This document shows, piece after piece, positions 14,913-39,672 of a stretch of DNA of 39,689 nucleotides. Position 1 is the stretch's first letter. Each line of letters opens with the position of its first letter. Position numbers and translations under genes: made by a program. Under the pieces are notes generated by a model, which saw only the letters and a list, made by a program, of their open reading frames with translations, searched no databases and was not told where the DNA came from. The stretch comes from a virus, in the IMG/VR virus record IMGVR_UViG_3300050821_003150, positions 1 to 39,689 of that record, one strand, 5' to 3'.

Positions 14913-15743
14913 ATGACCAAGTTCTTCGAGCAAGAGAAATGGGAATTTCTGACACGGGGGAAGGACCGGCGTCAGTCGAAAAAGAGGCTCATGAATCTGC
15001 ATTTAAAAGACCGAGAGAGAAATTATCTTCAGGGCGACGGTGTGCAAAACTCTCTCGATAAAGATTTCGGGAAAACCCCTAAACCCAAATTCAATCCGAT
15101 TTTAGTGGCCGCCTTCCTGGCGGTTTTTTTATTTCCGGTAAAGAGTTTTGCCGTTTGGTTTGCGGGGAGTGGTCCTGATTACAGCCAGGGCGCGGCCAGT
15201 GAGTTTTACTGTGCGGACGTAGCGGGGAGTCCTGTGACCACGGCGGCGGGGCTTTCGCAGACCGGTCCCGCTTTGGTGTTGGTCAATCCCTCGGCTTCCG
15301 GGAAGAACCTGGTGATCCTGGATGTGGGCATCGATATCACGGCGGCACCGGCGGCGGCGGCGCAGTTTATGTTGGCCTATTCCACCGGCGGCGTCAACAT
15401 ATCGACATCGGTCGTCACGTCTTCCGGCGGCATTGTGGGATTTAGCACCAACACGCTGGTCACGCCTGCCCGGCTCTTGACGGTGGTGGACTCCTCTCAG
15501 ACGCAGGTGGGACTCTCCCTCGGCCAGTGTTTGGGGGGGCAAGGGACGGCGCTGCCGTCTAAACCTACGGCGTTCCGCTATATCGGCGGCACGACGGGAG
15601 CAGCGGCGATCTCGGGGGTGACCTTGACGGATCAGACGCAGGGAAAAGTGGTGGTGCCGCCGGGCGGCGTGGTGAGCATCCAGTCGACTTCCGCCGCCAG
15701 CATTCTGGCGCATCTGTTGTGGCGTGAAGATCCAGGAAATTAA
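14913..15743 (+). CDS. Structural-like protein with hydrophobic leader
   Basis: 276 residues from ATG 14913 (no clear ribosome site); ATG 14991 (GAGG upstream) or GTG 15040 are alternatives giving shorter leaders. A strong hydrophobic stretch ending in a cleavage-like site (LVAAFLAVFLFPVKSFA-VWF) is at about 60-78. The remainder is beta-rich and Gly/Ala/Thr/Ser-rich. LVILDVGIDIT and KVVVPPGGVVSIQST...LLWRED resemble small head-decoration or fibre-like phage proteins. An exported form would be unusual for a virion protein (see findings). Confidence 0.6.
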   Translation: MTKFFEQEKWEFLTRGKDRRQSKKRLMNLHLKDRERNYLQGDGVQNSLDKDFGKTPKPKFNPILVAAFLAVFLFPVKSFAVWFAGSGPDYSQGAASEFYCADVAGSPVTTAAGLSQTGPALVLVNPSASGKNLVILDVGIDITAAPAAAAQFMLAYSTGGVNISTSVVTSSGGIVGFSTNTLVTPARLLTVVDSSQTQVGLSLGQCLGGQGTALPSKPTAFRYIGGTTGAAAISGVTLTDQTQGKVVVPPGGVVSIQSTSAASILAHLLWREDPGN

Positions 15744-18099: not shown

Positions 18100-18259
18100 A
18101 TCTAAAACTCCCTTATCCGAACACCGAGAGATTGAACTTGGACAATCCGGCGATCCAGATCATGATGGAAAAAAAGATGTTCGAGGACGACCCCGTCGCT
18201 CTCTTAAAGCTCGCGTACCTAAAAATCAAGACCAAGGAAGGAGATCTCATCCCCTTTGA
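17816..18259 (+). CDS. Overlapping frame with a membrane segment
   Basis: 147 codons in another frame across the previous gene and the terminase 5' end. Near the start it encodes ILIVYGCMLYALLVLILFAALRA-RDK, a strong transmembrane helix with a basic stop signal, then a polar tail. Only weak ribosome signal. Could be a nested holin-like gene or a chance open frame. Confidence 0.2.
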   Translation: MITLANVWFPSTNPDILIVYGCMLYALLVLILFAALRARDKSRLGPFSKWGSSPLNTPAVGARRSDLQPLKMYLNRRVRPPESGKPSPIGPSTYESKTPLSEHREIELGQSGDPDHDGKKDVRGRPRRSLKARVPKNQDQGRRSHPL

Positions 18260-21737: not shown

Positions 21738-23864
21738 ATGCCGGTCCTCTCTCCAGAGGAACAGCAGGCGCTTGGCGTCACGGGTCCGCCGCCGAAGGAG
21801 CAGGAACGTGACCCGAAAACCAAGATCACCCGACTGGCCACGCTGGAGTCGGGGATTTACCGGCGTCGGCTTAAACTCAAAGAAGAAGATAAGAAATTAG
21901 TGGTCGATCTTCTTTGGGACTGCTGGCGCGAATGGGACACCAATACTTCTCTCTTACGTTCTAAGCTTCTCAAATACAATAACCGTTTAGAAGGAATTTC
22001 GTCCCCGCGCTCAGACCCCTGGCCGGGGGCGTGTTCTTTGATGGTTCCGTTAATTGAGCTCCATATTGTGGGGCTTCATTCCTTGATTGCGGCCACGATG
22101 CTCGATAACGACCCCATCTGGTTTGTAAAAGAAATGGTTCCGCCTACGGCGGCAGGCGGTGAAGAAGTCGATCCGAATGTGGAGTGGTTCTTGAACTTCA
22201 AGGCCAAAGTGGAGCTTTCGATCAACCAGGCCTTATCGGAAGCCTTCTACAATGCCCTAGCCACTCCGCTTTCGATTGGAGTCATGGACTGGGTGGAAGA
22301 AGTCGGGAAGGAGTACCACGTTAATGCTTACGACAAGATCGAAGAGTTTGAACAGGACTTCCCATCACCAGACGAAGCCGGATGCAGCCCCGCCAGATAC
22401 ACCGAATATCTTTCTGACCTCACGCAAGGCACCCAGGTTCAAATCAAGATTGAAGAAGAGAAAGTCCGATACCGAGGGCCAAGGCTCCGCATCGTGGAAC
22501 TTAAAGACTTGGTCCGGGTGCCCGTCGATGCTCCGTCCTTGGAATACACGGTTCTTCATGGAGACATGTTCCGGCAACGGGCCAACTATTTTCGCAAAGG
22601 AGCCAACCGCGACTGGCTTGATAAAGCCGAAGTCGAGAAGATGCTTAAGGAGCCTGGCGAAACTACGGCGATGGATAAAGTCTCTCAGCAGCAAAACCGC
22701 AATGAGGGTCTCGGGACAACGCCTATTCGTAAGGCGGACGAATATTATTGTTTAAGAGGCAATCTCTGCATTGACTTAAATGATGACGGGGAAGAGGAGA
22801 TGTACCATGTCCTCTTTCATCCCAAATCCAAAACGCTTCTGCGTATCGAGGATTATCCCTATTGGCACAACCGCGTCAACTACATTCCGTTTAAGATCCG
22901 CCCCAAGTCCGGGCGTTTGATGGGTCGGTGTGTCACCGACATGCTCTGGGATATCAACGAAGAAGCGGATACTCAGCATCACCTGCGGATTGATTCTAGA
23001 GCCATCTCGACCGTGCCTTCGTTTAAGAAGAAGTTGACGGAAACCACGATTGATTTTTCCCGCAAGGACCAGAAGTTTTATCCCGGCGTGGTCTTTACGG
23101 TCCAGTCCATGGACGGGTTTGAGCAGTTGGAAATCAAGCAAACCGACATGGGCCAATCTCAGCAGGAAGAACAAACGCTTTTTCAGTTGGCGGTGTGGTT
23201 AATCGGAAATGATCCGGGACTACGTTCAGGAACGCCACAGGTTAAAGACCCCAGGGCGTCTGGGAAGAAGACCCAGCAGCAACTACAGCAGTCTAATGTA
23301 AGGGTAGACGACTATATCCGCCAACTGATGCAGGGCACTAACGAAGTGGGGACCCAGTGTTTGGAACTCTATTTCCAGTTCGCTCCGGATGCGGTTATTC
23401 CTTACGCTCAGTACGACCAGAACACGGGTCAATGGATTAAGAAAGAAATTGAGCGGGTGAAGCTCCGCAACAAGTCCATGCACGTCCAGGTGGCGCGGAT
23501 CTCAGTCATGGACAATCCCGATGCGGTCATGCAGAGGGCGCTTGTGAACTATCAGCTTTGGAGTCAGGAGCCCTTGATCGGGCAAAATATGCAAAGGCGT
23601 CATGAGTTGGTCAAGCGGACATTGTTCGCGGAGCGTGAGAAGGATATTACGAAACTCCTTCCGCCCATTGAGCAGATCATGCAGGAGATGCAGCAGCAGA
23701 AGGCGCAGGCGCAGCCGGGGACAGCCCATGGCGATATGCACGATGCGCTTCAGAATAAAACCAATAAAGGGGCGTCGGATGATAAGTCTGCGCTCGGTAA
23801 GAGGCAAGGCGGTAGTGATCTTTCGCCAGGGTCTCTTGGCAAGAAAGCACCAGGTAATCCGTGA
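21738..23864 (+). CDS. Portal protein (P22-like)
   Basis: 708 residues, the usual size of P22-type portals. N-terminal helices, SDPWPGACSLMVPLIELHI (about 91-110), central clip/wing region with VELKDLVRVPVDA, YIPFKIRPKSGRLMGRCV, a long helix region (LFQLAVWLIGND...KKTQQQLQQSNVRVDD), and a Gln/Lys-rich C-terminal coil with QEMQQQKAQAQ. It would form the dodecameric DNA channel at one capsid vertex and dock the connector protein at 28903-29679. Confidence 0.88.
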   Translation: MPVLSPEEQQALGVTGPPPKEQERDPKTKITRLATLESGIYRRRLKLKEEDKKLVVDLLWDCWREWDTNTSLLRSKLLKYNNRLEGISSPRSDPWPGACSLMVPLIELHIVGLHSLIAATMLDNDPIWFVKEMVPPTAAGGEEVDPNVEWFLNFKAKVELSINQALSEAFYNALATPLSIGVMDWVEEVGKEYHVNAYDKIEEFEQDFPSPDEAGCSPARYTEYLSDLTQGTQVQIKIEEEKVRYRGPRLRIVELKDLVRVPVDAPSLEYTVLHGDMFRQRANYFRKGANRDWLDKAEVEKMLKEPGETTAMDKVSQQQNRNEGLGTTPIRKADEYYCLRGNLCIDLNDDGEEEMYHVLFHPKSKTLLRIEDYPYWHNRVNYIPFKIRPKSGRLMGRCVTDMLWDINEEADTQHHLRIDSRAISTVPSFKKKLTETTIDFSRKDQKFYPGVVFTVQSMDGFEQLEIKQTDMGQSQQEEQTLFQLAVWLIGNDPGLRSGTPQVKDPRASGKKTQQQLQQSNVRVDDYIRQLMQGTNEVGTQCLELYFQFAPDAVIPYAQYDQNTGQWIKKEIERVKLRNKSMHVQVARISVMDNPDAVMQRALVNYQLWSQEPLIGQNMQRRHELVKRTLFAEREKDITKLLPPIEQIMQEMQQQKAQAQPGTAHGDMHDALQNKTNKGASDDKSALGKRQGGSDLSPGSLGKKAPGNP

Positions 23865-26267: not shown

Positions 26268-27161
26268 GTGTATACATCAGCGAACTGGCCGGATCTCTTG
26301 GAGCCGGGTCTTCGGAAGGTATTCTCCGATGCCTGGTGGCTGGAGCAGTTGCAAGCTATAGCGCCTATTCTTTTCAATATCGAAGACTCGATGAAGGCCG
26401 TCGAGCATGACCTGGAAGACGGGGACATCCTGGATTTTGCCCCGTTCTCTGGCCAAGTCGCTTATGATGACACGGGAGAAGGATACAAGACCAACTACAC
26501 CCATGCCCAGTTCGCGCGTGGGATGAAGATTGAAAGGACGTTGGTGGATGACGATCTCTATCGCGTCATTAGTCGGCGTCCTCAGAAGTTGGGACTGGCG
26601 GCTTTCCGTAAGCGCGAGACCGATGCGGCGAGCGTTTTCAATAACGCTTTCAATTCGGGATTTACGGGCGGGGACGGACAGTCGTTGGGTTCTTCGGCGC
26701 ATCCATCGAACAACGGTGGACCGTCGCAGTCGAATCTAGGCACTACGTCCCTGTCGCCTACGGAAGTGGACAACGCACGGATCAAGATGAAGGGGTTCCT
26801 GACCAACCGTGGGAACTTCCAGACGATCCAGCCGGACTTGCTCTTGGTGCCGATGGCTCTGGAATCCTATGCGTTTGAAATCATCAATTCCAACGGCAAA
26901 GTGGATACGGCCAACAACAACCCTAACTTCCACAGGGGGCGCTATAAGCTCGTGGTGTGGGACAACTACTTGACGAGCGGCACCCACTGGTACTTGATTG
27001 ATTCCAAGTTGATGAAAGAGTTCCTGTTGTGGTTTGACCGGATTAAACCGGAGTTCTACAAGGACAGTGAGTTTGATACCTTAGTCGCAAAATTCGCCGG
27101 TTATATGCGCTATTCCTATGGATGGAGCGACTGGCGTTGGCTCTACGCCGAGAACAGCTAG
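26268..27161 (+). CDS. Major capsid protein (HK97-fold)
   Basis: 297 residues, GTG start with AAGGAGG upstream. Sequence order fits the phage major head family: LEPGLRKVFSDAWW, an E-loop region (AYDDTGEGYKTNYTHAQFARG), a Gly/Ser/Asn-rich loop (SAHPSNNGGPSQSN), PDLLLVPMALESYAFEII, YKLVVWDNYL and a Trp-rich end SYGWSDWRWLYAENS. Forms the icosahedral shell with scaffold and decoration proteins encoded just upstream. Confidence 0.85.
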   Translation: MYTSANWPDLLEPGLRKVFSDAWWLEQLQAIAPILFNIEDSMKAVEHDLEDGDILDFAPFSGQVAYDDTGEGYKTNYTHAQFARGMKIERTLVDDDLYRVISRRPQKLGLAAFRKRETDAASVFNNAFNSGFTGGDGQSLGSSAHPSNNGGPSQSNLGTTSLSPTEVDNARIKMKGFLTNRGNFQTIQPDLLLVPMALESYAFEIINSNGKVDTANNNPNFHRGRYKLVVWDNYLTSGTHWYLIDSKLMKEFLLWFDRIKPEFYKDSEFDTLVAKFAGYMRYSYGWSDWRWLYAENS

Positions 27162-27185: not shown

Positions 27186-27265
27186 AACTTTAGGTCTTGT
27201 TAAGTTGTGTATTTCGAGTAATGGGGCAACAGTTAGACAGCGGGACGATAACTCTGGAGTATATT

Positions 27266-27709
27266 ATGGATATTTCTAATCAGTATTGGGCTGGGTTTTT
27301 TGACGGAGAAGGAAATATCTACTTCGCCAAAGACCTTGTTCATATGAAGGTTGGTATATCTCAAAAGGAAACTGAAACCCTGTATCTTCTAAAGATGAGA
27401 TTCGGAGGTTATCTTAGTCGTACAGGAGGGAAATATCCGTGTGCGCGATGGGAGGTTGGTGGTAAGAAGGAGATTGTCTCTTTCCTGGAAGCTGTTTGTC
27501 CATATCTTATCGTTAAGCGTGTAGAGGCTGAGATTGCTCTTGAGGCTTTAAAAGGATGGAGAGAAAGCCGCAACTATAAGAGTGGTCTTAATGGTCCATT
27601 GCCACAAGAAGAGATTGATAGAAGGCGTAATTTGAAAAAAAAGTTTGACGAAGACCGAAATGATCCAAAGATAAATCCTACTTCTACTGAAGGAGTTCAA
27701 CATGCCTAA
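27266..27709 (+). CDS. LAGLIDADG homing endonuclease
   Basis: 147 residues from ATG 27266 (GGAG 6 bases upstream). YWAGFFDGEGNIYF at 7-20 is the single LAGLIDADG motif with its acidic residue; then strands and EIVSFLEAVCPYLIVKRVEAE. One-motif members act as dimers. The capsid gene upstream looks complete, so this is free-standing rather than inside a split gene. The region 27162-27265 holds no gene beyond the inverted repeat. Confidence 0.85.
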   Translation: MDISNQYWAGFFDGEGNIYFAKDLVHMKVGISQKETETLYLLKMRFGGYLSRTGGKYPCARWEVGGKKEIVSFLEAVCPYLIVKRVEAEIALEALKGWRESRNYKSGLNGPLPQEEIDRRRNLKKKFDEDRNDPKINPTSTEGVQHA

Positions 27710-28232
27710 GCGTTCTTTAGCATCATTATCTGGTACCACGCAAGAAAGGCCTGACCCGACGAAGTCTTCTCCTGAAAAACAGGTGGAGAAGGTGGACCGG
27801 AAGATGACCTTTCAGGAGCGCGAGATGTTGCGTCATGAAATCGAGATGACGGAACGCTCCATGAATCAGGACATCAAACAGGCGGATGACCCCAGGGCCA
27901 AAAAGGAGCTCTACCGCAAGAAGATGCTACTCGCGCACGATGATGAGTTGACCTTTCAGGGGAACGATAAGGAACTGGCCTATCACGAACTGAAAGAGAT
28001 TGAGAAGGTCATTGTCCCTGAGATGCCGACTAAAAACGAAATGTGGCCGAAGAATGACATTTCGTTAAAAGCCCAGGCGCTCCGTCATCAGCAGGCTTTT
28101 GAAAAGAAGTTTAATGATCCCAATTCGGGGAGTGAGACGGGTGGGCTTGTTTTGAGATGGCAGGAACTCAAAAGACGTTTGGAGCCGGATAATCCTCATG
28201 CACAAAATCTGGATAACATCCGGCCCGACTAA
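27702..28232 (+). CDS. Hypothetical helical protein after the capsid gene
   Basis: 176 residues; AAGGAG upstream. Strongly charged helices (MTFQEREMLRHEIEMTERSM, DDPRAKKELYRKKMLLAHDD), coiled-coil-like. Probably a head or head-completion accessory protein by position; family unknown. No leader sequence. Confidence 0.65.
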   Translation: MPKRSLASLSGTTQERPDPTKSSPEKQVEKVDRKMTFQEREMLRHEIEMTERSMNQDIKQADDPRAKKELYRKKMLLAHDDELTFQGNDKELAYHELKEIEKVIVPEMPTKNEMWPKNDISLKAQALRHQQAFEKKFNDPNSGSETGGLVLRWQELKRRLEPDNPHAQNLDNIRPD

Positions 28233-28250: not shown

Positions 28251-28886
28251 ATGAAGAAGTTATTGTCTGTTGTTCTGGCCTATGCTTTGGTTCTTTTGCC
28301 TCTCACGTCTTATGCCACCTGTTTAACCCCTTTGGCCAACAAGAACGTGGAGGGGCCTCCATATCTGGTGGACTACACCACTGGGGCGAACCAGTCCTGT
28401 ATTGAGTATTACCTGGACACGAGCGGCAACGGCGCTTATTTCGGGAATCTTTCGGTTACCGGGAACACCGCCACGACGGGCTCAACAACCAATTCGGGGA
28501 TTACGGTCTATCCTCCCTTGGGTGCGCCAGTCGTTTCTACGGGGACCAATAGCAGCACCGTCTATCTTTCGACTTGTTCTACCATCAACCCGACAGCAAC
28601 GGTTTTGGTTGTCGTGTCTACGGGTGCCAACATCAACATGGCCGGGTGCCAACAGGTGGTTCCGGCACCTGTGATTGCCACCGCCACAGCGACGGCTGGT
28701 CAATGGCTTGTGTTGGAGTCCACGTCGGAGTTGAACGTCGGAGGGTCGGTGATTATTTCATCGTCTGCGGTCAATGGTATCCATTTGGGATCAGCGACTC
28801 GCTCTATATCACAGAACTCGGTGCTAACGTTGATCTTTGATGGTGTGCAACACATCTGGAAAGAAGTCAGCTATACCGGAGAATGA
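28251..28886 (+). CDS. Tail/fibre-like protein with Sec signal peptide
   Basis: 211 residues. Starts MKKLLSVVLAYALVLLPL, ending SYA-T: a textbook signal peptide (basic n-region, hydrophobic core, A-x-A-like site near residue 23). The rest is Ser/Thr/Gly/Val-rich beta sequence (GNLSVTGNTATTGSTTNSG, LNVGGSVIISSSAVNG) ending LTLIFDGVQHIWKEVSY, typical of a fibre or appendage head domain. GGGAGG precedes the ATG. First of four consecutive genes with signal-like N-termini. Confidence 0.7.
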   Translation: MKKLLSVVLAYALVLLPLTSYATCLTPLANKNVEGPPYLVDYTTGANQSCIEYYLDTSGNGAYFGNLSVTGNTATTGSTTNSGITVYPPLGAPVVSTGTNSSTVYLSTCSTINPTATVLVVVSTGANINMAGCQQVVPAPVIATATATAGQWLVLESTSELNVGGSVIISSSAVNGIHLGSATRSISQNSVLTLIFDGVQHIWKEVSYTGE

Positions 28887-28902
28887 CCGAACGTTTAAAT
28901 GC

Positions 28903-29679
28903 GTGAGAAAACTTCTTTTATCCCTCGCCCTAGCCCTCGCCGTCCGGGTTCCCTGTTGGGGAACCCTGGCGGCGTCCGATTTAATCAGCCGAACAAGAAC
29001 CCTTCTTAAAGACGCCTCCCTTACGGCCAATCGCCAGCAATTCTCGGACGCTCAATATCTCGCCTGGGCTTCGGATGGCCAACGGGAAGCCAATGCCCTG
29101 AACTGGCTTCTCCAATCATCCGTCACAATTACTTTAACCAACAACGTTCAAGAGTACGCCATGCCCGCCGATTTCATGTTTGCCAATCGCGTGTGGGCGA
29201 ATATCCCCGCGTCGCAGCCCTGGCAGAAGATTCCGGCCTCTTCCATGAATGACCTGGATGCGCGGTATCCGGGATGGTTCAATGTGACGGGCGGTCCTCC
29301 TATTGCCTACTTTTCGGATATGTCTGAAGGAACCGTTTTCCTTGGTTTTTATCCGATCCCCGTGAATCCTTCCACAGGGACCGTCCTCATTTACTACGTC
29401 CAAAACACAGTGGACCTTTCGGCCTCCAATGAATCCGCCATCCCCTTTAACGGATGGGTTGTTCTTCAGCCCTACGTATCGGCGCTCACCTACTACATGG
29501 CCTACCGCGCGTATATCACTTTAGAAGAAACGGAACTGGCGCAGGTCTACTACAAAGAGTGGATCAATTTTCTGATGGTGATGAGGCAAGGCCTCAATCG
29601 TCAGCCTGATTTTAATCCGGCGGCAGGAGCCTTACGGAGCGGTTCCCCGAACAGCCAGAGTGGACTGGGAGGGCCGTAA
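28903..29679 (+). CDS. Head-tail connector/adaptor-like protein with N-terminal leader
   Basis: 258 residues from GTG 28903. Leader MRKLLLSLALALAVRVPCWG-TLA, then SDLISRTRTLLKDASLT, FSDAQYLAWASDGQREANAL, VQEYAMPADFMFANRVW, LDARYPGWFNVTGGPPIAYF and LGFYPIPVNP. This order (R-x-x-L-x-D, W-x-x-x-x-QREA, Y-x-x-P-A-D, ARxPGW...G-x-P) is that of phage adaptor proteins below the portal. These are normally cytoplasmic and start at the RTRTLL segment, so the leader is unexpected. An alternative upstream start at 28840 would overlap the previous gene. Confidence 0.75.
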   Translation: MRKLLLSLALALAVRVPCWGTLAASDLISRTRTLLKDASLTANRQQFSDAQYLAWASDGQREANALNWLLQSSVTITLTNNVQEYAMPADFMFANRVWANIPASQPWQKIPASSMNDLDARYPGWFNVTGGPPIAYFSDMSEGTVFLGFYPIPVNPSTGTVLIYYVQNTVDLSASNESAIPFNGWVVLQPYVSALTYYMAYRAYITLEETELAQVYYKEWINFLMVMRQGLNRQPDFNPAAGALRSGSPNSQSGLGGP

Positions 29680-32484
29680 ATGTGTGGAAAGTTTACATAC
29701 ACCCTTTCGCTATGTATAGTTTTAGGCGTTTCCTTTACATACGGGTCTCCCCTTAAAGAGGGGAAGCACTACGACTATTCTAAGGGCCTAGACACCTACC
29801 ACTCTTCACTATCTCTCCCGGACGGGTTTGTTCAGAAGTCCCTAAACGTTCTCTTTGATGCCCAGGCTCCTGTCACCAAGCGGCAAGGATATTCTGTGGC
29901 CTTTTCAAGCAAAGGGTATTCCTACCAGCAGGCGTGGACGTATGTCGACCCCACTAACACGTCCTGGATCATTGTTCGGGCATCTGATTCCGTTATTGCC
30001 AACAGTTTGTCGGGCGGTTTAAGTGTCCTGGTCGCCACCGTGTCCGCCAATAATTTGGTCGGAGAAGCCAATGCGTTTGGGGACGCTTTCTTTACCGATC
30101 AAACCCAGGGGGTCTATTTCTGGAACGGGACTTCCACCACCTATGTATCGGGGAGCCCGAAAGGGTCCTTAATGGCCCAGTGGCATGGACGCGTGTGGGT
30201 GGCGGGTTTGGCTGTGCCAAGTGGAAATCAACTGTGGGGTTCTAGGCAATATGATGCGATCTCAGGAACCGCCTGGGGGACAGGGGTCAACCCGAACGAC
30301 CCCGTGACGCTCGTGGTGGGTCTCCAGGATAACTTTGACAATATCTCAGCGCTTTATCCTTTCCTCGATACACTCTACACGTTCCGCCACTTCTCGACCT
30401 ATGCCGTCTATGGGTTTGACCAGACCTCTTTCCAACTGTCCTTTATTACCGCCGAGTGCGGATGCGTGGATCAGAACTCTATTCAGACCTATAACCATGC
30501 TCTGGTGTTCGTTTCAGAGCGCGGGGTAGAGTCTTTTAACGGGTATACCTGTACCCGCATTTCGGATGCGGTGAAGAACATGGTGGATGCTTCGATTCAG
30601 GCCCAAGGGGGTGTGAATCAGCAATCCTGGGTCCAGGCGTCGCCAGCCGATTGGAATGCGGGGACCTTCACGCCTTCTGCCAATCTCAATACAGTCATTG
30701 CGTCCCCTGCGTTGGTTCTTTCGACTTTTAGTGTGACGGAAAACTCAAATACACAGTGGTCTCTAGGAAGTACGAGCAATGTCGTTGTCGGCGTGAGTTC
30801 TATTTCTTTGGTGATTAATAATTTAGGGAATCTTACGAACCCGAGTTTCGAGAGTTCGATCTCTGGGAATTGGACCGCGAATGGTGGCCTTCCTACATTC
30901 CAGCGCGTTTCGAGTATTGGGGGCCTTAATTGCGGGACGATTAATCCTCAAAGTGGTTCGTCGTTAATGCAATATTCAGACTCCCCGCTTGATTATGTTT
31001 CTGGTGACACGGTTGAATTTGATGCGACGAATGATACTGCGGTAAACCCCACCATTCTTCAGCAAGTGTTTGCGACCGTTACCTTTGATTGTACATGGAG
31101 ACAATACACGCTAACGCCTTCTGCGGCTAATTTTGGAACTCGCGTGAGGTTTCAATTCCGATTTCGTACAGGGTCAACCGGGGAGACGTTACAGACCTCC
31201 GATTCTTATATATGGGGAGGCCCTATTACATTTTATGCAGCTATGGGGGACGTTAATGCAGTTCCTACCAATGGAATTCCATATTACGGTTTTGATAATG
31301 TCCAGAATGGATCAGATACGATTACCTCTGGGTCATTCACATCTCAGGTATATAACACGGGCATTGCGTCTAATTCCTATTCCATCACGAACTTTTCTTG
31401 GACTCCAAATATTACTACCCCGACTTTCAATTTACAGACTTCCGGAGGAGCCAGCGGTCCTTGGACATCAATCTTGGCGTCAAGCGCCACAAATGCCTTT
31501 GGATTTCAATACTTCCAGTACACGAGCACCATCACGGCAGAGCCGGGAGACAACGTTTTTGCAGCCATTAATTCCGCTACGGTCCAAGCCACGGCCTCCA
31601 CGGGAACGATCAAATCCCAGATTCATAATTTGGGAACGATCAACTCCTTCGGGAACTTTGCTGTGACGGATGTCTTAAATTCCGGAAACATTAATTTCTC
31701 TATTTGCACATCGAGCAATCCGACGATGAATGGCGGTGCGGGAAACACCGCCTCTTGCGCGAATCAAACGGTCAATTCACAGATTACCGTCTCAACAGGA
31801 GTCACAGGGGCCTCTACCTATGTCCAGTGGTATGCCACCTTTAGCGTCACTGCCGCCACCCAGACGCCAACGCTGAACTCGGGAGTCGTCCAGTGGTTCT
31901 CAGGAAACAACTCTCCGCCGATGGCTTCAACGGTCTGGGATAACCGCTACTGGTTGTCTTTGACCACGACGACAGCCGACACCGCTGACGATGCGGTTTT
32001 GGTTTTAGGTATCTCGGGGGCCTGGGCGCTTTTGGATCTCCATGCCGGTGGATTCGTCCAGTATAAGAATAGCCTCTACCATTCTGATTCCTTGGCCTCC
32101 GGAAATGTATACCTGGACAATCAGGGCTATCGGGACAATAATAAAGCTATCAATGCCTTTATCCAGACGAAGGATCTATGCGGGGAGGACCTCGATACAG
32201 AGGACTATTACGAATCCCTTTATACGTCCATGGACAATCTTGGGAGTTTCAATATGACCATCCAATATGCCATGGACCGCTTAAACACGTCCCCTTATAC
32301 GCTTTCATCCATTAACCAGACGGAGTTTTCGGGAAATACGGCCATTAAGATCCCATTTATTCAAAGTGTCAATAACCAGAACTTTTCCAAATGCATCAAT
32401 TTCACTTTTACAGAACCGGATTTGGATAGTCCATGGCTTTGGTATGGTTTCACGACCTATTCTCACCCCAGGGAGGTCCAATGA
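29680..32484 (+). CDS. Large tail hub/needle-region protein with signal-like start
   Basis: 934 residues; GGGAGGG upstream and start right after the previous TAA. Leader MCGKFTYTLSLCIVLGVSF, TYG-SP. Residues about 25-330 resemble the hub/'stabilisation' class of short-tailed phages: YDYSKGLDTYHSSLSLPDGF, APVTKRQGYS, LDTLYTFRHFSTYAVYG, HALVFVSERGVESFNG. The middle (about 350-760) is Ser/Thr/Asn-rich beta repeats, and the C-terminus (760-934) is a globular domain (VWDNRYWLSLTTT; LWYGFTTYSHPREVQ). Probably a tail hub with receptor-binding arms. Confidence 0.7.
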   Translation: MCGKFTYTLSLCIVLGVSFTYGSPLKEGKHYDYSKGLDTYHSSLSLPDGFVQKSLNVLFDAQAPVTKRQGYSVAFSSKGYSYQQAWTYVDPTNTSWIIVRASDSVIANSLSGGLSVLVATVSANNLVGEANAFGDAFFTDQTQGVYFWNGTSTTYVSGSPKGSLMAQWHGRVWVAGLAVPSGNQLWGSRQYDAISGTAWGTGVNPNDPVTLVVGLQDNFDNISALYPFLDTLYTFRHFSTYAVYGFDQTSFQLSFITAECGCVDQNSIQTYNHALVFVSERGVESFNGYTCTRISDAVKNMVDASIQAQGGVNQQSWVQASPADWNAGTFTPSANLNTVIASPALVLSTFSVTENSNTQWSLGSTSNVVVGVSSISLVINNLGNLTNPSFESSISGNWTANGGLPTFQRVSSIGGLNCGTINPQSGSSLMQYSDSPLDYVSGDTVEFDATNDTAVNPTILQQVFATVTFDCTWRQYTLTPSAANFGTRVRFQFRFRTGSTGETLQTSDSYIWGGPITFYAAMGDVNAVPTNGIPYYGFDNVQNGSDTITSGSFTSQVYNTGIASNSYSITNFSWTPNITTPTFNLQTSGGASGPWTSILASSATNAFGFQYFQYTSTITAEPGDNVFAAINSATVQATASTGTIKSQIHNLGTINSFGNFAVTDVLNSGNINFSICTSSNPTMNGGAGNTASCANQTVNSQITVSTGVTGASTYVQWYATFSVTAATQTPTLNSGVVQWFSGNNSPPMASTVWDNRYWLSLTTTTADTADDAVLVLGISGAWALLDLHAGGFVQYKNSLYHSDSLASGNVYLDNQGYRDNNKAINAFIQTKDLCGEDLDTEDYYESLYTSMDNLGSFNMTIQYAMDRLNTSPYTLSSINQTEFSGNTAIKIPFIQSVNNQNFSKCINFTFTEPDLDSPWLWYGFTTYSHPREVQ

Positions 32485-33188
32485 GGATTCGGGATTGGAG
32501 GATTCCTTTTGGTGTTCTTCTTCTCTGCGCTTTGGCAGAGTTTTCCTGGGGCGCGTCGCCTACGTCCAGTTCAGTTTTATTGCCTGTCCCAGACCCCGCC
32601 ACCTACCGGGACCTTCAGAATCTTCAGCAGGCGATCATCAATCCGACGATTTCAACGGGAACGGCTAAGGGATTTATGGTCTCTTCTTTTACGGCCACAA
32701 ACTTTACGGCTACCAATGGCACGATCACGACAAAACTGACCGTTCCGAATGGTGTTGCGGCAACAGACGCAGCGGCATTCGGCCAACTCCCAGTTTTCAC
32801 CAACATGACGACTTACGCGGGCGGGGTCAATGGGAATGGTTCTATTTCAGGTGGGGTATTTGAATATAGACAGATGGGTGATGTGATTGATGTATGGGCT
32901 ACGTATACCTCAGGGATACCCACAGGAACGGCGTGGAGTATGACCCTTCCTGTCAATATCAATTTAACGTCGCTTCAGAACACGCAGGCCATCTTAGGTG
33001 TTTTAGGAGCTTCAGACGCGGGGACATCCAACGGACTTTTGATTTTTACGGACGGGTCGGATGCAACGAAAGTCTATGTTACTTTGCCGACGGCAGGAAC
33101 CGCCGGAGGTGCCTTTCACAAAGAACTAGGTAATGTCCGCATGAATAATACGGATACCGTAAGCGTTCGATTTACGTATCCAAAATAG
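32481..33188 (+). CDS. Tail fibre-like protein with signal peptide
   Basis: 235 residues from ATG 32481 (GGGAGG upstream, ATGA overlap). Leader MRIRDWRIPFGVLLLCAL, EFSWG-ASP. Then a short helix (DPATYRDLQNLQQAIINPT) and repeats (SFTATNFTATNGTITTKLTV) as in fibre shafts, and a C-terminal head domain (VIDVWATYTSGIPTGTAWSM, KVYVTLPTAG). Probably receptor-binding. Confidence 0.7.
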   Translation: MRIRDWRIPFGVLLLCALAEFSWGASPTSSSVLLPVPDPATYRDLQNLQQAIINPTISTGTAKGFMVSSFTATNFTATNGTITTKLTVPNGVAATDAAAFGQLPVFTNMTTYAGGVNGNGSISGGVFEYRQMGDVIDVWATYTSGIPTGTAWSMTLPVNINLTSLQNTQAILGVLGASDAGTSNGLLIFTDGSDATKVYVTLPTAGTAGGAFHKELGNVRMNNTDTVSVRFTYPK

Positions 33189-33197: not shown

Positions 33198-34283
33198 ATG
33201 GCCACAGGCGGAATTTTACCGACAGACACAGAGAATACAGGAGGGCCTCTTGGCGGGGATAATAGTGGTGGGACGGGAGGAGCCGATCCCAATCCCATTA
33301 CAGACCCTACAGGCGGACAACCCAATTTTAATATAGAAGCCATTTTTCAGAGCTTCGGGTATACGCCCTCACAGGCCGAAATCAACGCTTTGTCCCCCGC
33401 TTTTGAAGGACGCACGAACGTCCTTCAAACGGGGACTTCGGCAGTAGCGGAATACGTCCAGGCCCACCAAGAATTGGCGGGTGCCCAAAGTCAGATTCAG
33501 GGCAATCTCTTGTCTGAACAGGAGGCGGCCAAGAACTCCCAGACCTTAGCCGATGTCTATGCTTCTGGAGGCCAGGCGGCTTACGATGCGGCGGCACAGG
33601 TCTTTACACAGGCCCCAAAGCTCTTTGGGTCTTTGACGGCAGATCAGATCACGCAGTATCTCCAGCCCGCTCAGGATGCTTTCAATAAGGCACAAGGGAC
33701 TACGACGGGAGCGATGTCCGCCAGAGGCTTAGGTGGATCTTCTATTGAATCCCAGGCTTTAAGTCAGAATCTTTCCCAGTTCATGACGCAGACGCTCATG
33801 ACGGGTCTTGGGATTGGTCAGCAGCAACAAGCAAATCAGGCGGGAGTGCTACAGAACAAGGGGGCTGGGCTCTTTGGTCTTTCGCAGACCGAGACTGGAG
33901 TGGGTGCTCAGTACCAGGGTCTTGCCAATGCCTCAGCAGCCAATAACGCAACGCTGGCGGGTCAAAAGACGGGGTTGGCGGGAGGGGCTGTGAATGAGGC
34001 GATTGCTCAAGAGGCAGCGATTCGGGCTTTAAATCCTCAGTCACAGAGTTTCGGAGGCCAGATCTTATCGGGCCTAGAAAGTGCGGGAGTGCAAGATATC
34101 ACGAATCTGGGACAGAACCTGGTTGGAAGCATACCTGGATTGGGGCCTTTGACCAAACCAGGAGGAGGGTTTCCTGGAATGACGCTTGGAGGAGGAAGTT
34201 CTGGAGTTTCACCGACAGGAGCTCCGATCTCAACATCCACGGCGGCTCCAGCACTTCCTGATTTCACGTCAGGATTGGCGTAA
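33198..34283 (+). CDS. Putative ejection/internal virion protein
   Basis: 361 residues; AGGAGG upstream. Gly/Pro-rich ends, and a long Ala/Gln/Ser helix centre (AYDAAAQVFTQAP, NKAQGTTTGAMSARGLGGSS, QALSQNLSQFMTQTLMTGLG). Low complexity, no leader. This type of Ala/Gln/Gly-rich protein after tail genes of P22-like phages is usually ejected with the DNA. Confidence 0.6.
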   Translation: MATGGILPTDTENTGGPLGGDNSGGTGGADPNPITDPTGGQPNFNIEAIFQSFGYTPSQAEINALSPAFEGRTNVLQTGTSAVAEYVQAHQELAGAQSQIQGNLLSEQEAAKNSQTLADVYASGGQAAYDAAAQVFTQAPKLFGSLTADQITQYLQPAQDAFNKAQGTTTGAMSARGLGGSSIESQALSQNLSQFMTQTLMTGLGIGQQQQANQAGVLQNKGAGLFGLSQTETGVGAQYQGLANASAANNATLAGQKTGLAGGAVNEAIAQEAAIRALNPQSQSFGGQILSGLESAGVQDITNLGQNLVGSIPGLGPLTKPGGGFPGMTLGGGSSGVSPTGAPISTSTAAPALPDFTSGLA

Positions 34284-34292: not shown

Positions 34293-35126
34293 ATGTTAGG
34301 CGATACAGATGCCGTTTTAGGAAGCGTCCCTCAGAATGCTTCGATCATTCAAGGGCAACAGGACAGACAACAGAATCTTGGGATAGACAGGGCCAATGTG
34401 GCTATGAAGCCGGGGCAAGAGGAGGCTTCCGCTCAGGCGACTGCTCAAGGGACCAATATAGGTAATCAAGTGACGATCTCTCCACAAATAGCGAAGGGAT
34501 TAGAGAAGATGACGGGGCAAAAATGGGACCAGGCCGTCGGGACCAAATGGAATGCCAATGTCTTTACCGCCATCGTCACGGGCATGACCCAAGCCAAATA
34601 CCATCAGGATGTTCAGGCCGGGAAGATCGTTGTGGAGGGGATGAAAGTGGGGGAGTCTGAGAAGAAAACGGAAACGACAGAGGCAGGAAAGGATAATCGC
34701 CAAAATAAGTCTATTGAAGCTAAGCACGAGGATGTGGCCACCCAAGTCAAAGGGCGAAAGGATGTGGCCACTACTCCAAAACCCAAAGTCGCTACGCCCA
34801 AAGACCCCTCCGAGGAGGGTCGTCAACTCTTGGATGGCATCAATAAAGCTTCTAAATCTGGAGATGATGTAGCCAAACAGACGGCGATTACCAACTATAA
34901 CAACTTCGCCAAAGAGCATGGTTTGGCCACTTATACGCCAGAAGAAGGAGATCTAAAGAAGTTTTCGGAATTTGTAATGAATGGACTTGGAAAGTTAAAG
35001 GCCAAATTCGATCAAGCGGGGAAGAATGATGGTTCTGAAAAGGCAAAGGCATGGTTACAGAAGAATCATCCCGAACTTAAAAATCCCACGGATCAGGATA
35101 TCGAGTGGGCAAAGAAGAAAATGTAA
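34293..35126 (+). CDS. Hydrophilic virion-like protein
   Basis: 277 residues; AAGGAGG upstream. Gln/Lys/Glu/Thr-rich with a central charged linker (TTPKPKVATPKDPSEEG) and a helical C-terminus ending KNPTDQDIEWAKKKM. The final 'HPELxxPTxxDIxWA' looks like a small phage C-terminal motif. Likely a second ejection protein; no catalytic motif seen. Confidence 0.55.
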   Translation: MLGDTDAVLGSVPQNASIIQGQQDRQQNLGIDRANVAMKPGQEEASAQATAQGTNIGNQVTISPQIAKGLEKMTGQKWDQAVGTKWNANVFTAIVTGMTQAKYHQDVQAGKIVVEGMKVGESEKKTETTEAGKDNRQNKSIEAKHEDVATQVKGRKDVATTPKPKVATPKDPSEEGRQLLDGINKASKSGDDVAKQTAITNYNNFAKEHGLATYTPEEGDLKKFSEFVMNGLGKLKAKFDQAGKNDGSEKAKAWLQKNHPELKNPTDQDIEWAKKKM

Positions 35127-38100
35127 TGGCTGACGACGATCTTCCTCCATCCTTAAGAGCTTCGGGTGATGTTCCGCCGTCTATGAGGACACCGGATCAA
35201 ACGCCTCCTTCCATGCGATCAGGTATGGTCTCTGCGCCCATGCCCTCCCGTCCCGATCCTATGCAGGCCACATTTGAACAGGATAAGAATGTAAAAGCAG
35301 GAGAAGAAGTCCCTGCTGAAGGAAAAGCGTTTATGGCTGCTGAATCTGCTGCTGGCGGTTACTATCTTCCTCAGCTTCCAGGGCAGATCATCCGTGGAGC
35401 AAAGGCTTTAGGAGAACTTCCGAAGACAGTAGAAGAAGCTATGAATGCCGTAAAGACGGGCGGTGGGGCTGAAGAGTTCCCAAGAGCTTCTATTGAGGGC
35501 GATAAAATAGTAAAAGCTCCTTGGGATATGACAAAAGAGGAATTTTCAAAAGAAGAAGCCAAAGGTATGGGTATAAGTTGGCAAAATGCGGTTAAGGATG
35601 ATAATGGAAATATCCATGTTTCCAATACGGCAGAGCATGGCGACATGGTTCCAAAGCTTAGAGATCAAGGATTAATCGGAGACGAAGACAAACCGCAGTA
35701 TCGCGGATGGGTTTGGAAAGGCTTGGATAAGGATAAAACATTTATTGATGTTGGTGATCTCCAAAAGTCTGGAGGAGATTTTCATCAAGCGTATCTGAAC
35801 AAGAAGCCAGAAGATCCAAAGCATGGGAGTATCGCTGATATCTTTAAGTTTGAGAAAGAACCAGGAACGATGTACCACGGCACTGCCCTTCGGTCGCTGG
35901 ATTCAATTTTGAAACAGGGAGAGATAAGACCGAACATTTCGGCAGATGCCGATAATATTATGAAGGAGCATCCATCAATTTCGTTGAGCCGAGAACCAAA
36001 GATCGCAGAATGTTTTGGGAATGTGGTCTTCCACGTAAAGGAAGACAAGGTCCCCGATGCTTATGAGGCTGAAAAGATGTGGGCTCAGTATGGCGATAAA
36101 TATAAGGGCATTGAACATCGTCTTGATAGGCCAATTCCCTTGAAGGATGTGGATAAGGTCACTATTCAGTTGGGTTCCAAGGAAGGAATGGACTATAAAT
36201 TCGCCGGTTCTAAAACCGTCCAAGAGTATGTCGATGATCTCAAAAGCAGAGGGATTCAGGTCGATATCCAAAAACCTCAAGACCCAAGAGATGTTTTAAA
36301 GCAAGTTGCCAAAGACTCCGTAGAAAAAGTCCTTCCTCAGTCCTCCAAATCTGCCGAGCATCTGGCGATTGATGCGGAAACAGCAGGTTCCCAAGCTCCG
36401 AGAGCGCTGGGTGTTCCTTCAGCGATGGTGGATTCTTCTTCCAAGCTCAAGGGAACTGAAACAGCTCCTGCACTTAAACCAGAGATCATCCCAGGCACAA
36501 GAGCTTGGTCGACTCAAATTTGGCAACGGCTCGTCACTCCGGCGGCTAAGGCGATTGCCGCGCAAGGGCCATCGGGTCAATCCCTGGCAGCCGATATTAT
36601 TAAGGTCCGCGATGTTCCGAGCGTCCGATACGGTATGGAATTTGGAGCAGGGTTTGAAGAACTTTATAATCAGCTCCCTAAAAAGTTTGTGGAGCAGGTC
36701 GGAAACGAAATCCAGATGTCTCTTGAAAACAAGTCTTTTGAAAGCGACCTTCCTTCCGACGTTAAAATTATTCGTTCTAAATTGGCGGAAGAAGCCAAGA
36801 ACGGCCTAAAGCGCATCAGTGATTGGGCGCAAATCGCCAACGACGGAAAACCGATTAAGATCCACCGCACCAATGGCGATGTGGTCGATTGGGCACCGCG
36901 CGGAGACTATTACCCGCGATGGGTGAAAACCGATATTTTAGAAGACATTGTTCGTGGCCAAGAAGGAAGAATGAAACAATTGGCCCAGCATCTTTTGGAT
37001 TCTCGCCAAGCACCAAATTCCCAGGCCGCGATGGAGCAGGTGAGAAATTTTAGGAAAGGGCTCTTGGATAGAAAGTTCGGTCACATCGAGCGCTCGCGTG
37101 AGATGGACCTCCCTCCCATGTTCTATGAAACCAATGCTTTTAAGGTCATTCCGCAGTATATGAAAACGGCTTATCAGCGTCTTTCGGAAGTGGAGACCTT
37201 TGGTCTAAATGATCACAAGGCCATCGGAAAGATCATGAATATTGCCCATGAAGGAGGAGATGAGGATTTGGCCATTCGTTCTTATCGTCGGATTACGGGG
37301 CGCGATCCCGTGGACGCTGTGGCCAAAGGCATGTTCTCCGCCCTTCGGAACTGGGCGACCGGGTCCATGATTCAATTCCAGACTACGCTATACCATCTTC
37401 CCAGGACGCTTTATCCCGCCCTGGAAGCGGGGTTCCTAAAATCCTTTAAAGGGCTATGGAACGCCATTGGAGAATCGGGCGATCTTGAAGCAACCCGTAT
37501 GGGAGTGAACTTGTCCAGAGGGATGTCCGAGTTCTTACAAGAGGAATATGGCGGAGGAAAAGGGGTTTCTGGGAAGTTTGCACAAAAGATGCTGACACTT
37601 GAGGGGATCAAGCCCTTAGACCGTTTTGACCGGAAGTATTCGGCCATTGTGGGGAAGGACTATATAGAAAATGATTTAGTCAAAACGCTTCTAAAAAAGC
37701 CGGGAAATTCGAGAGCTAGAGAGGGTCTTCAATCGCTCGGTATTGATACCGATAAAATCCTTGCCAATAAAAAGATTGATCCTTTGGATTTAAACGTAGG
37801 AGCCAAGCGCTTCTCGGACCGCTGGCAGGGAGCTCCCGATCCGACCCGACTCCCGATGTGGGCGACGACCAATCCTATTGTTCACTCCGCCTTTCAGTTC
37901 AAGAACTTTATCTATGTCATCAGCCGGGAAATGGGTGGTTCGATTGCTAGGGCCGCCAGGACGGGAGACATGGCCACACTCGCCCGTTTTGGATCTTTGC
38001 CGATGGCCGGAGGAGTGGTTTACGGCATTCGCCACGAGATGGGATTGCATGATACGAAGTATGTCGATGACCCGAAGCTCAATCAGGCCTTGAATGTCCT

Positions 38101-38329
38101 CCGAGACTCCGCTCCACTGCCCATCGGTGTGGATGTGGTCTTTAAAATCCTTCAAGGCCGTCGAGGAGTGAATGACATGATGACTTCTATGTTCCCTTCG
38201 ATTAACGCTCCGTTGGACCTTTTGGGCGATGTAGGGGAAACGATCAAGAAAGGAAAAATGGATAAGCAGACGAAGAAAGACTTTGAACGCCATATCCCAG
38301 GAGTTGGTACTTTCATATCTCATACATGA
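35126..38329 (+). CDS. Large ejection-type protein with ART-like domain
   Basis: 1067 residues from ATG 35126 (TAATG overlap). N-terminus has three PPSxR repeats (LPPSLRAS, VPPSMRTP, TPPSMRSG). Residues about 245-365 look like an ADP-ribosyltransferase fold: MYHGTALRSLDSILKQGEIR (249-), SISLSREPKIAECFG (286-) and YKGIEHRL with Glu330, matching the H-Y/H-G-T, S-T/L-S and E positions in order. The C-terminal ~580 residues are helical with AFQFKNFIYVISREMGGSIARAA as in large internal virion proteins. An injected enzyme acting on host factors (compare T4 Alt) is plausible but inferred. Confidence 0.65.
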   Translation: MADDDLPPSLRASGDVPPSMRTPDQTPPSMRSGMVSAPMPSRPDPMQATFEQDKNVKAGEEVPAEGKAFMAAESAAGGYYLPQLPGQIIRGAKALGELPKTVEEAMNAVKTGGGAEEFPRASIEGDKIVKAPWDMTKEEFSKEEAKGMGISWQNAVKDDNGNIHVSNTAEHGDMVPKLRDQGLIGDEDKPQYRGWVWKGLDKDKTFIDVGDLQKSGGDFHQAYLNKKPEDPKHGSIADIFKFEKEPGTMYHGTALRSLDSILKQGEIRPNISADADNIMKEHPSISLSREPKIAECFGNVVFHVKEDKVPDAYEAEKMWAQYGDKYKGIEHRLDRPIPLKDVDKVTIQLGSKEGMDYKFAGSKTVQEYVDDLKSRGIQVDIQKPQDPRDVLKQVAKDSVEKVLPQSSKSAEHLAIDAETAGSQAPRALGVPSAMVDSSSKLKGTETAPALKPEIIPGTRAWSTQIWQRLVTPAAKAIAAQGPSGQSLAADIIKVRDVPSVRYGMEFGAGFEELYNQLPKKFVEQVGNEIQMSLENKSFESDLPSDVKIIRSKLAEEAKNGLKRISDWAQIANDGKPIKIHRTNGDVVDWAPRGDYYPRWVKTDILEDIVRGQEGRMKQLAQHLLDSRQAPNSQAAMEQVRNFRKGLLDRKFGHIERSREMDLPPMFYETNAFKVIPQYMKTAYQRLSEVETFGLNDHKAIGKIMNIAHEGGDEDLAIRSYRRITGRDPVDAVAKGMFSALRNWATGSMIQFQTTLYHLPRTLYPALEAGFLKSFKGLWNAIGESGDLEATRMGVNLSRGMSEFLQEEYGGGKGVSGKFAQKMLTLEGIKPLDRFDRKYSAIVGKDYIENDLVKTLLKKPGNSRAREGLQSLGIDTDKILANKKIDPLDLNVGAKRFSDRWQGAPDPTRLPMWATTNPIVHSAFQFKNFIYVISREMGGSIARAARTGDMATLARFGSLPMAGGVVYGIRHEMGLHDTKYVDDPKLNQALNVLRDSAPLPIGVDVVFKILQGRRGVNDMMTSMFPSINAPLDLLGDVGETIKKGKMDKQTKKDFERHIPGVGTFISHT

Positions 38330-39672
38330 AGATACTCTACCTCTCAGCGAAAGGCGACTCTTTCCCTCTCGGATGCGAGATGGTCAAAGAGGGCCATGAG
38401 GTCAAATTCTACACCAAGTCCCCGAAGGATAAGGACGCGGGCACGGGATTTGTGCCTTTGGTCGATAACTATGTCGATCATTTGAAGTGGGCGGATTTGG
38501 TGATTACAGACGACACGATCTGGGGGAAGATCAATGACTCCATTCGGAAAATGGGAATACCGGTTATCGGTGGAACGCCGGTTACGGACAAGCTCGAAGA
38601 AGACCGTCAAGCCGGACAAGAGATGTTTAAAGCCCTTGACATGCAGACGCTCGACTCCAAGGACTTCACGGACATGGACGAAGCCATCGCCTATATCGAA
38701 GAAAACCCCCGTAAATTCGTGGTCAAAGTATCGGGAAAGGCCCAAGACGACAAGACCCTGACGTATGTGGGCCAAATGGAGGATGGTTCAGATGTGCCTA
38801 AAGTCCTAGAACATTATAGGTCCAAGATGGGTTCTGGAATAGCCTCTGTGCAGGTCCAGGATGTGGCCGAAGGGGTGGAAGTGGCCCTGGGCGGGTGGTT
38901 TAATGGTTCTGAGTTCTTAGACCCCTTGCTGCTAAACTTCGAGCACAAAAAGTTAATGAGTTGTCGTTACGAGCAGGCCGGAATAGGTCCTGCCACAGGC
39001 GAGATGGGTACCATCGGATGCTGGAAGGATAAGGGGTTTGAGTTGTATGAAGAGACTCTGGCTAAATTCATTCCCGTTTTAAAGAAGGAGGGCTATCATG
39101 GATACTTTGACATTAACTGCATTGTTCACCCGTATATTGGTCTTGAGCCAAACACTCCTTTTCACGTTCACCCGCTTGAGATGACAAACCGCTTTGGCTG
39201 GCCGACTATTCTTATGCAGATGGAGGCCATGAAGATCCAGGATTTGGGAGAGCTATTCTTAGGCATTGCAAACGGGACCGCCACGGATTATAAAGTGAAT
39301 GGGTACTATTGTGCCTGCGTGGTGATAGGATGCCCGCCACTTCCCTATATCTCTCAGGAGATCGCAGACAAGATGTCCAATGGTCTGCCGATCATTTTTA
39401 AGGACGGGGACTGTGAAGGCGTTTATCCAGGGGATGCGATCCTAAAGGGCGAGGATTGGATTTGTCAGGGAGAGAAGGGCTATCCCTGTGTGGCGACCGG
39501 ATGCGGAGACACTATTCAGGACGCTCAAGCCAAGGCCTACTCCCGTGTCCGTAATATCATCATTCCGAATGCCATGTACCGTGAAGACATCGGAGACCTG
39601 ATTCCTGGAAAGTTAATGCAGATCCAAAGGCTTTTAGAGCATAATAAAATCATGGCGGAAACCATTTCATGA
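38326..39672 (+). CDS. PurD-like ATP-grasp ligase
   Basis: 448 residues, ATGA overlap with the previous gene. KILYLSAKGDSFPLGCEMV (2-20) pre-domain, VIGGTPVTDKLEEDRQ, FVVKVSGKAQDDKT (ATP-binding strands), VEVALGGWFNG, GTIGCW, GYFDINCIVHP, EMTNRFGWPT, and C-terminal TGCGDTIQDAQAKAYSRV. The order matches PurD (phosphoribosylamine-glycine ligase), with Mg/ATP residues at NRFG-x-P. PurD-family ATP-grasp enzymes join a carboxylate to an amine. In a phage it may serve purine synthesis or make a modified nucleotide or peptide bond; substrate unknown. Confidence 0.8.
   Translation: MKILYLSAKGDSFPLGCEMVKEGHEVKFYTKSPKDKDAGTGFVPLVDNYVDHLKWADLVITDDTIWGKINDSIRKMGIPVIGGTPVTDKLEEDRQAGQEMFKALDMQTLDSKDFTDMDEAIAYIEENPRKFVVKVSGKAQDDKTLTYVGQMEDGSDVPKVLEHYRSKMGSGIASVQVQDVAEGVEVALGGWFNGSEFLDPLLLNFEHKKLMSCRYEQAGIGPATGEMGTIGCWKDKGFELYEETLAKFIPVLKKEGYHGYFDINCIVHPYIGLEPNTPFHVHPLEMTNRFGWPTILMQMEAMKIQDLGELFLGIANGTATDYKVNGYYCACVVIGCPPLPYISQEIADKMSNGLPIIFKDGDCEGVYPGDAILKGEDWICQGEKGYPCVATGCGDTIQDAQAKAYSRVRNIIIPNAMYREDIGDLIPGKLMQIQRLLEHNKIMAETIS

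Follow-up and report, generated by a model that had tools for sequence, protein, structure and literature searches.

Four consecutive tail genes encode proteins with Sec-type leaders

The window, the whole 39,689-nucleotide stretch analysed here (IMG/VR record IMGVR_UViG_3300050821_003150), belongs to a lineage of uncultured, podovirus-like tailed bacterial viruses; neither tRNA nor Rfam matches were found in it. Four consecutive genes on its plus strand encode a spike/fibre-like protein of 211 aa (28251..28886), a head-tail adaptor of 258 aa (28903..29679), a putative tail nozzle, or gp10-like 'stabilization protein', of 934 aa (29680..32484), and a small tail/fibre protein of 235 aa without an assigned family (32481..33188). 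The preliminary description had claimed a Sec-type leader on each of them, and all four were read directly from the sequence: MKKLLSVVLAYALVLLPLTSYA in gene 28251 (28251-28316, next residue T), MRKLLLSLALALAVRVPCWG in gene 28903 (28903-28962, next residue T), which starts with GTG and has a weak or absent SD, MCGKFTYTLSLCIVLGVSFTYG in gene 29680 (29680-29745, next residue S), and MRIRDWRIPFGVLLLCALAEFSWG in gene 32481 (32481-32552, next residue A), which overlaps the preceding gene in an ATGA.

Each leader is composed of a positively charged n-region, a hydrophobic core of ~9-13 residues and small residues at positions -3/-1 of the cleavage site, as expected for Sec (SPI) signal peptides, and the cores match those of E. 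coli signal peptides in hydrophobicity and length. The n/h/c scores were 7.83 (28251), 6.8 (28903), 5.94 (29680) and 7.43 (32481), on a scale where thirteen well-known E. coli signal peptides ranged from 5.3 to 8.9; a score above 5.5 was reached by 10 of 1067 genes of at least 90 aa from leaderless related loci. Shuffling of residues 2-30 gave P values of 0.008, 0.045, 0.001 and 0.0005, respectively, indicating that composition and residue order both contribute to the score. The cleavage sites proposed earlier are predictions as to exact position, and the scorer shifted some of them, for example to between ALA and VR in 28903. Lipoprotein (SPII) and Tat leaders were rejected, as neither a lipobox with Cys at +1 nor a twin-arginine (RR) motif occurs in the five leaders of the window (the fifth, in gene 15042, is described below). 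Lysines are present among the early mature residues of some nozzles, which is less usual directly past a cleavage site.

The adaptor matched the Pfam family SU10_adaptor (PF24175) with 80.8 bits (curated cut-off 27) starting at residue 24, and phrog_399 from residue 23, and its profile aligned with a solved adaptor, PDB 8jov chain 2, beginning at residue 4 of that chain. The mature protein thus matches this family over its length, and differs from it by ~20 extra N-terminal residues that constitute the signal peptide. The leader was present in all clade members, whereas ~40 wider SU10-adaptor homologues were leaderless and started where the leader ends. Pfam, PHROGs, the solved adaptor and these homologues together confirm the earlier statement that the family normally begins at that point. 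The nozzle had no match among Pfam, PHROG and PDB profiles, and its AlphaFold model (pLDDT 37) was set aside. A tblastn search detected a leaderless 'phage stabilization protein' (24% identity, E 7e-4) and an HMO-2011 protein (E 1e-4), and the position beside the adaptor fits a P22 gp10-like nozzle. For the spike/fibre-like protein, the match to Pfam Phage_depo_C was weak (E 0.0037, below cut-off). Its AlphaFold model (pLDDT 61) comprised a helix at 2-22, a low-confidence stretch and beta structure, and the top Foldseek match was the phage tailspike depolymerase 24qj (E 1.5e-5), at a TM of only 0.33 from a weak model. Homologues of the small tail/fibre protein were 87-235 aa long and carried leaders at the same position.

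The P22 tail consists of 12 gp4, 6 gp10, gp26 and six gp9 trimers (PMC8402733). The block resembles the P22 set (gp4 adaptor, gp10 hub, gp26 needle, gp9 tailspike) in the order and roles of its genes, in that the SU10/gp4-type adaptor precedes a putative gp10-like stabilization protein and fibres. P22 tail proteins, however, are not known to carry leaders and are assembled on heads in the cytoplasm, unlike the tail parts of the present lineage, which bear Sec leaders. Distantly related nozzle proteins, in comparable gene order, occur in HMO-2011-type and Manatee Spring podoviruses (GU557055, MW202803), but the tail genes of these viruses are leaderless. In INPHARED, tblastn returned no adaptor or fibre match, and distant records only for portal, capsid and nozzle. 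A capsid-profile scan of genome contigs, made in search of a host, retrieved only a distant Rhodospirillales MAG locus, also leaderless.

Head, packaging and ejection proteins are leaderless

On the plus strand as well, the terminase (18096-19829; phrog_2), the portal (21738-23864), the products of genes 23861, 24243 (scaffold-like), 25047 and 25483, and the capsid protein (26268-27161; Pfam Phage_capsid_4) are leaderless, as are the putative ejection proteins downstream of the block (33198-34283, 34293-35126 and 35105-38329), which are almost Cys-free and are leaderless in relatives too. Of 60 proteins assigned to head, portal, scaffold or ejection, none carried a leader. Between capsid and leadered block lies a conserved leaderless gene of 176 aa (27702..28232, plus strand), without a Pfam or PHROG match. 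Its position is kept across the clade and in L039, which is less closely related (43% capsid identity), and its C-terminus reads ..LxxIRPD/LERLRPD. In L039 the same 176-aa gene is followed by three leadered proteins that form a different set.

Leaders are conserved in relatives and extend beyond the block

The same genes were leadered in every relative with >50% capsid identity whose contig covers the block; sister phages lacking the leaders, whose existence would have spoken against the proposal, were not found among them. The nozzle leader was present in all clade homologues. The leader sequences themselves are poorly conserved: mean identity was 0.24 in the leader and 0.52 in the mature part for the adaptor, and 0.28 and 0.45 for the nozzle. 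Leader identity was the lower in 21/21, 14/15 and 11/15 pairs, while the signal-peptide features were kept.

Misassigned starts, chance hydrophobic N-termini or assembly errors could in principle create such a pattern, and a few details would fit: gene 28903 has no clear SD, and the otherwise conserved leaders contain an ATA in L004 and an in-frame TAA in L013. The comparative data effectively refute this explanation, to which we assign a negligible probability, since the leaders are conserved independently across at least 10 contigs that come from different metagenomes, the background is 10/1067, and a good SD precedes the leader start in 27 of 43 leadered genes. Genes 1 and 4 of L004 and the nozzle of L013, considered as leaderless exceptions, proved to be a matter of frame or start choice, and their leaders are present.

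An SD-preceded in-frame start within codons 13-45 occurred in only 3 of the 43 leadered genes, so misassignment is not suggested from this side either. The rarity of such internal starts, from which an unexported form could be made, also argues against two pools of tail protein, one exported for receptor masking, superinfection exclusion or as decoys, and another kept in the cytoplasm for virions. Phage proteins of the periplasm or cell surface are known to cause superinfection exclusion, and the leader region of one fibre bears a weak resemblance to the Cor profile (E 0.0095), which probably reflects no more than its being a leader. Nevertheless, leaders on the portal-binding adaptor and the nozzle would be left unexplained, and we consider two pools decidedly unlikely.

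The leaders were not confined to the block. A fifth leadered protein is encoded upstream of the terminase by gene 15042 (15042..15743, plus strand; 233 aa from the GTG at 15042, within a longer ORF from 14913), with a leader at ~15042-15152, a score of 5.65 and homologues in four relatives. The complete relatives had leaders on at least 15 unrelated families, among them large fibre and spike genes and 15042, which indicates that leaders track virion location and not the descent of one gene. The claim that the feature marks exactly the connector-to-fibre block is therefore too narrow, as fibres, spikes and 15042 belong to the set too. Since all leadered proteins belong to the tail or surface, the side facing the host, the leaders might also remain part of the virion and serve as hydrophobic N-terminal helices that, for example, line or plug the connector or contact the host membrane at DNA entry. 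However, adaptor, fibres and spikes sit apart, so that one common helix could hardly be of use to each of these proteins, the small -3/-1 residues would be purposeless, and the leader sequence is poorly conserved; retention in the virion thus appears highly improbable.

Cysteines change in matched pairs in leadered proteins

Overall Cys parity of the leadered proteins (19 even, 19 odd) and overall Cys content relative to all non-virion genes were uninformative, and the comparison among virion proteins and the covariation of columns were used. Leadered virion proteins contained 1.14% Cys and leaderless ones 0.31%. Concordant pairs of variable Cys columns numbered 6 against 0.7 expected in the nozzle and 3 against 0.25 in the 28251 family, compared with 1, 1 and 0 in the leaderless controls (portal, terminase and 25483 family); the shuffles behind the expected values ignore relatedness, for which the same-clade controls account partly. 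In 29680 the covarying pairs are 260/291, 676/693 and 857/917. Homologues of 15042 have exactly two invariant Cys each, except that L176, the sole leaderless one, has lost one of the two. Leaderless nozzle homologues also contain Cys (6 in 523 aa).

In the alignments, Cys residues of leadered proteins are thus gained and lost in matched pairs, as disulfides would be, which lends indirect support to cleavage and translocation in the host. The preliminary description had left two possibilities, assembly at or across the membrane, or leaders acting as tethers. Because the Cys columns covary in pairs, passage across the membrane is preferred to a tether, with the site of assembly itself a prediction. 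As tethers, the leaders would hold untranslocated tail proteins on the cytoplasmic side of the inner membrane, and tails would be built beside membrane-bound proheads and freed by cleavage or lysis. Membrane-linked morphogenesis does exist, as in T4 prohead initiation (PMC9958956), and head and tail would share one compartment, avoiding the problem of DNA leakage. But the cores have signal-peptide length and are not 19-residue anchors, A/G-type cleavage motifs recur, the paired Cys indicate an oxidising compartment, and a large domain after an N-in leader would end up outside unless translocation is blocked. Tethering is accordingly regarded as unlikely.

A proposed route for tail assembly outside the cytoplasm

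Export of the tail and fibre proteins is well supported as a prediction from sequence. That leaders occur on tail, fibre and spike proteins but on no head protein further suggests that tails are built outside the cytoplasm. We somewhat favour the view that the leaders work as true Sec signal peptides for the proteins on the outside of the virion, and that a periplasmic tail is joined to cytoplasmic heads. The fuller proposal, in which the whole tail is built outside the cytoplasm, all connector, fibre and spike proteins being Sec-exported and disulfide-bonded in the periplasm and virions finished only on breach of the inner membrane, is evenly balanced in our judgement. Adaptor, nozzle, fibre and spike proteins would be targeted to the inner membrane and translocated by Sec, their leaders probably cut by the host signal peptidase, and the exported proteins would fold with disulfides and form the tail in the periplasm. 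The leaderless capsid, portal, scaffold, terminase and ejection proteins would support head assembly and DNA packaging in the cytoplasm. Head and tail might meet when a holin opens the inner membrane, or a DNA-filled head might dock on it. In P22 without the plug gp26, packaged DNA leaks before lysis (PMC8402733), so a cytoplasmic head without adaptor and tail would need another seal, at which we can only guess. A leaderless plug would have to close the portal until the tail arrives, and the product of 27702 is a candidate for this cytoplasmic portal plug or for a head-completion protein.

Partial parallels exist. Filamentous phages have virion proteins with Sec signals (M13 pIII, pVIII) and are assembled and released via the host export route (PMC4823517). 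The present lineage shares with them virion proteins carrying Sec signal peptides; filamentous phages, however, are without head, portal and terminase, whereas this is a dsDNA tailed phage in which only tail and surface proteins are leadered. Assembly of the filamentous type, with all coat proteins membrane-inserted and extrusion without lysis, was rejected, as this phage has a terminase, a portal and a capsid, none of them leadered. Assembly of the T4 prohead begins at a portal dodecamer bound to the membrane, with gp40 and YidC (PMC9958956). The proposed route resembles this initiation (gp20, gp40, YidC) in tying morphogenesis to the inner membrane, but in T4 it is the head that sits at the membrane, via a chaperone, and here the targeting signal is on the tail proteins.

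The usual view is that a tailed phage makes its head and its tail in the same compartment. Full-text searches of open-licence papers yielded no account of Sec leaders on the tail proteins of tailed phages, and no description, for any tailed virus, of a route that builds the tail outside the cytoplasm. Export signals on tail, fibre and spike proteins, and never on head proteins, suggest that head and tail may be made on opposite sides of the membrane. If true, this would be a new assembly route that explains the disulfides in such fibres and raises the testable question of what keeps a filled head sealed before its tail is added. Leadered tail genes offer a simple sequence marker for finding similar phages.

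Sec-type leaders on four consecutive tail-region genes

The 39,689-base virus record has a podovirus-like layout of terminase (phrog_2), portal, a scaffold-like gene, capsid (Phage_capsid_4), an SU10-type adaptor, a gp10-like nozzle and ejection proteins, the portal, nozzle and ejection roles being putative assignments from position and weak similarity. A PurD/GARS-like ATP-grasp protein (38326-39672; PF01071, E 9.6e-9) lies immediately 3' of the ejection genes, and homologues occupy the equivalent place in three related loci (G001, G002 and G008). An AAA ATPase (7050-9186, minus strand; phrog_249, labelled porphyrin biosynthesis in PHROGs) adjoins a DUF7192 protein (PF23822), together forming a two-gene unit.

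The preliminary description had read Sec-type leaders at the starts of four genes, at 28251 (spike/fibre-like), 28903 (adaptor), 29680 (nozzle) and 32481 (small tail or fibre protein). All four were borne out, scoring 5.9-7.8 with a custom n/h/c signal-peptide scorer, used throughout with a custom gene caller. Thirteen E. coli signal peptides (range 5.3-8.9) served to calibrate the scorer, and the threshold of 5.5, set against these controls and the same everywhere, left one of the 13 (PhoA) slightly under; in leaderless related loci, 10 of 1067 genes of at least 90 aa passed. The hydrophobic cores equal those of the E. coli signal peptides, and exact cleavage sites are predicted from sequence. 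The adaptor starts with GTG and has no clear Shine-Dalgarno (SD) sequence. A seven-codon ORF (28883-28906; ATG 28883, SD GGAG ahead) overlaps the stop codon of gene 28251 and terminates in a TGA that itself overlaps this GTG; stop-start reinitiation is a possible mode of adaptor translation.

Conservation among relatives

Relatives were collected by scanning viral contigs for capsid, adaptor and nozzle. Leaders were present in every relative with 51-96% capsid identity whose contig covers the block (L004, L006, L007, L010, L011/L012, L013, L014, L015, L058, L135 and L139), always 3' of a conserved leaderless gene of 150-190 aa. L010 has five leadered genes rather than four, the first leader scoring low with an Asp within its core and still reading as a leader. 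In almost every pair the leaders shared less identity than the mature parts, so the property is kept rather than the letters. Genes 1 and 4 of L004 and the L013 nozzle were rejected as leaderless exceptions, their leaders being found by reading the DNA. The conserved leader of L004 gene 4 (14097-14160) has ATA at the start-codon position and that of the L013 nozzle (about 4190-4250) an in-frame TAA at codon 3, possibly reflecting a rare start, read-through or sequencing error. A LAGLIDADG-like ORF (27197-27709; by eye, without a Pfam match) between the capsid gene and 27702 is present in L004 and missing from L006 and L007, and is probably a mobile homing endonuclease.

That the adaptor family normally starts where the 28903 leader ends was confirmed by about 40 wider SU10-adaptor homologues, isolate phages included, none of which has a leader; Pfam, PHROG and solved-adaptor (8jov) alignments begin at residues 23-24 of the query. 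Likewise, the distant nozzle homologues of Manatee Spring podovirus and HMO-2011 are leaderless, whereas the nozzle here is leadered. Capsid relatives below about 50% identity mostly have another downstream module without leaders, and several have a single leadered protein, about 120 aa long. In L022 (10019), L033 (9713) and L036 (8882), at about 48% capsid identity, this short protein (..DPCESF or similar) lies slightly downstream of the capsid gene. L039 (43%) encodes three proteins with leaders (9450-13199), all from other families, 3' of a homologue of the 176-aa gene 27702, so the trait may have an older origin or may have spread.

Leaders and virion location

The earlier claim that leaders mark exactly the connector-to-fibre block held in part: a leader is absent from all 60 proteins assigned by position to head, portal, scaffold or ejection roles, but leaders also occur on the window gene 15042 and on large fibres and spikes. 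An HNH homing endonuclease (15750-16217; phrog_1872, E 3e-19) adjoins 15042, and the ORF at 2648-3175 resembles a second by eye. In the long relatives G001, G002, G003, G004 and G008, large fibre and spike-like genes are leadered (551, 716, 676; 1089, 263, 308, 689; 411; 596, 239, 964 aa), as are the 15042 homologues. Leaderless small proteins also exist among the fibres (112 aa in G001; 99 and 115 aa in G008). In G001, the product of L157 1018-1446 has collagen-like Gly-X-Y repeats behind a lipoprotein-type leader (LLMA|C). Clustered by their mature parts, the leadered proteins form 19 groups, of which at least 15 seem unrelated; together with the leaderless head and ejection proteins, this indicates that the leader tracks a protein's place in the virion, not its gene family, and provides the strongest argument that use in the particle would require a leader.

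Paired cysteines and the assembly route

Cysteine content was 1.14% in leadered versus 0.31% in leaderless virion proteins, and variable Cys columns of the leadered families were gained or lost in pairs (nozzle 74/112, 260/291, 676/693 and 857/917; 28251 family 28/41, 43/51 and 130/141). Concordant pairs numbered 6 against 0.7 expected in the nozzle (two of the six include column 262, whose pattern is that of 676/693) and 3 against 0.25 in the 28251 family, from small alignments and shuffles that ignore relatedness; same-clade controls gave 1 for portal, 1 for terminase and 0 for the leaderless head-region 25483 family. Homologues of 15042 have exactly two invariant cysteines, and the sole leaderless one, L176, has Gly at the first. 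Such a pattern is what disulfides formed in an oxidising compartment would leave, and the Cys content, the paired columns and the L176 loss make translocation likely. The main rival, membrane-tethered assembly, has a partial precedent in T4 prohead initiation (PMC9958956).

In the favoured model, the leadered proteins would be exported by Sec and fold in the periplasm, and the tail would be assembled there, joining DNA-filled heads once the inner membrane is opened. The chief difficulty for this export model is that in P22 DNA escapes before lysis from heads without gp26, the plug protein (PMC8402733), so a leaderless plug would be needed to seal the filled head beforehand; the sole nameable candidate is gene 27702, conserved and leaderless, by its position between the capsid gene and the leadered block. 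Full-text searching of a collection of open-licence papers turned up no description of Sec leaders on a tailed-phage tail module. Virion proteins with Sec leaders are already known from filamentous phages. Here, a podovirus-type virion would use an apparently new assembly route. A fibre of foreign origin would need to acquire a leader.
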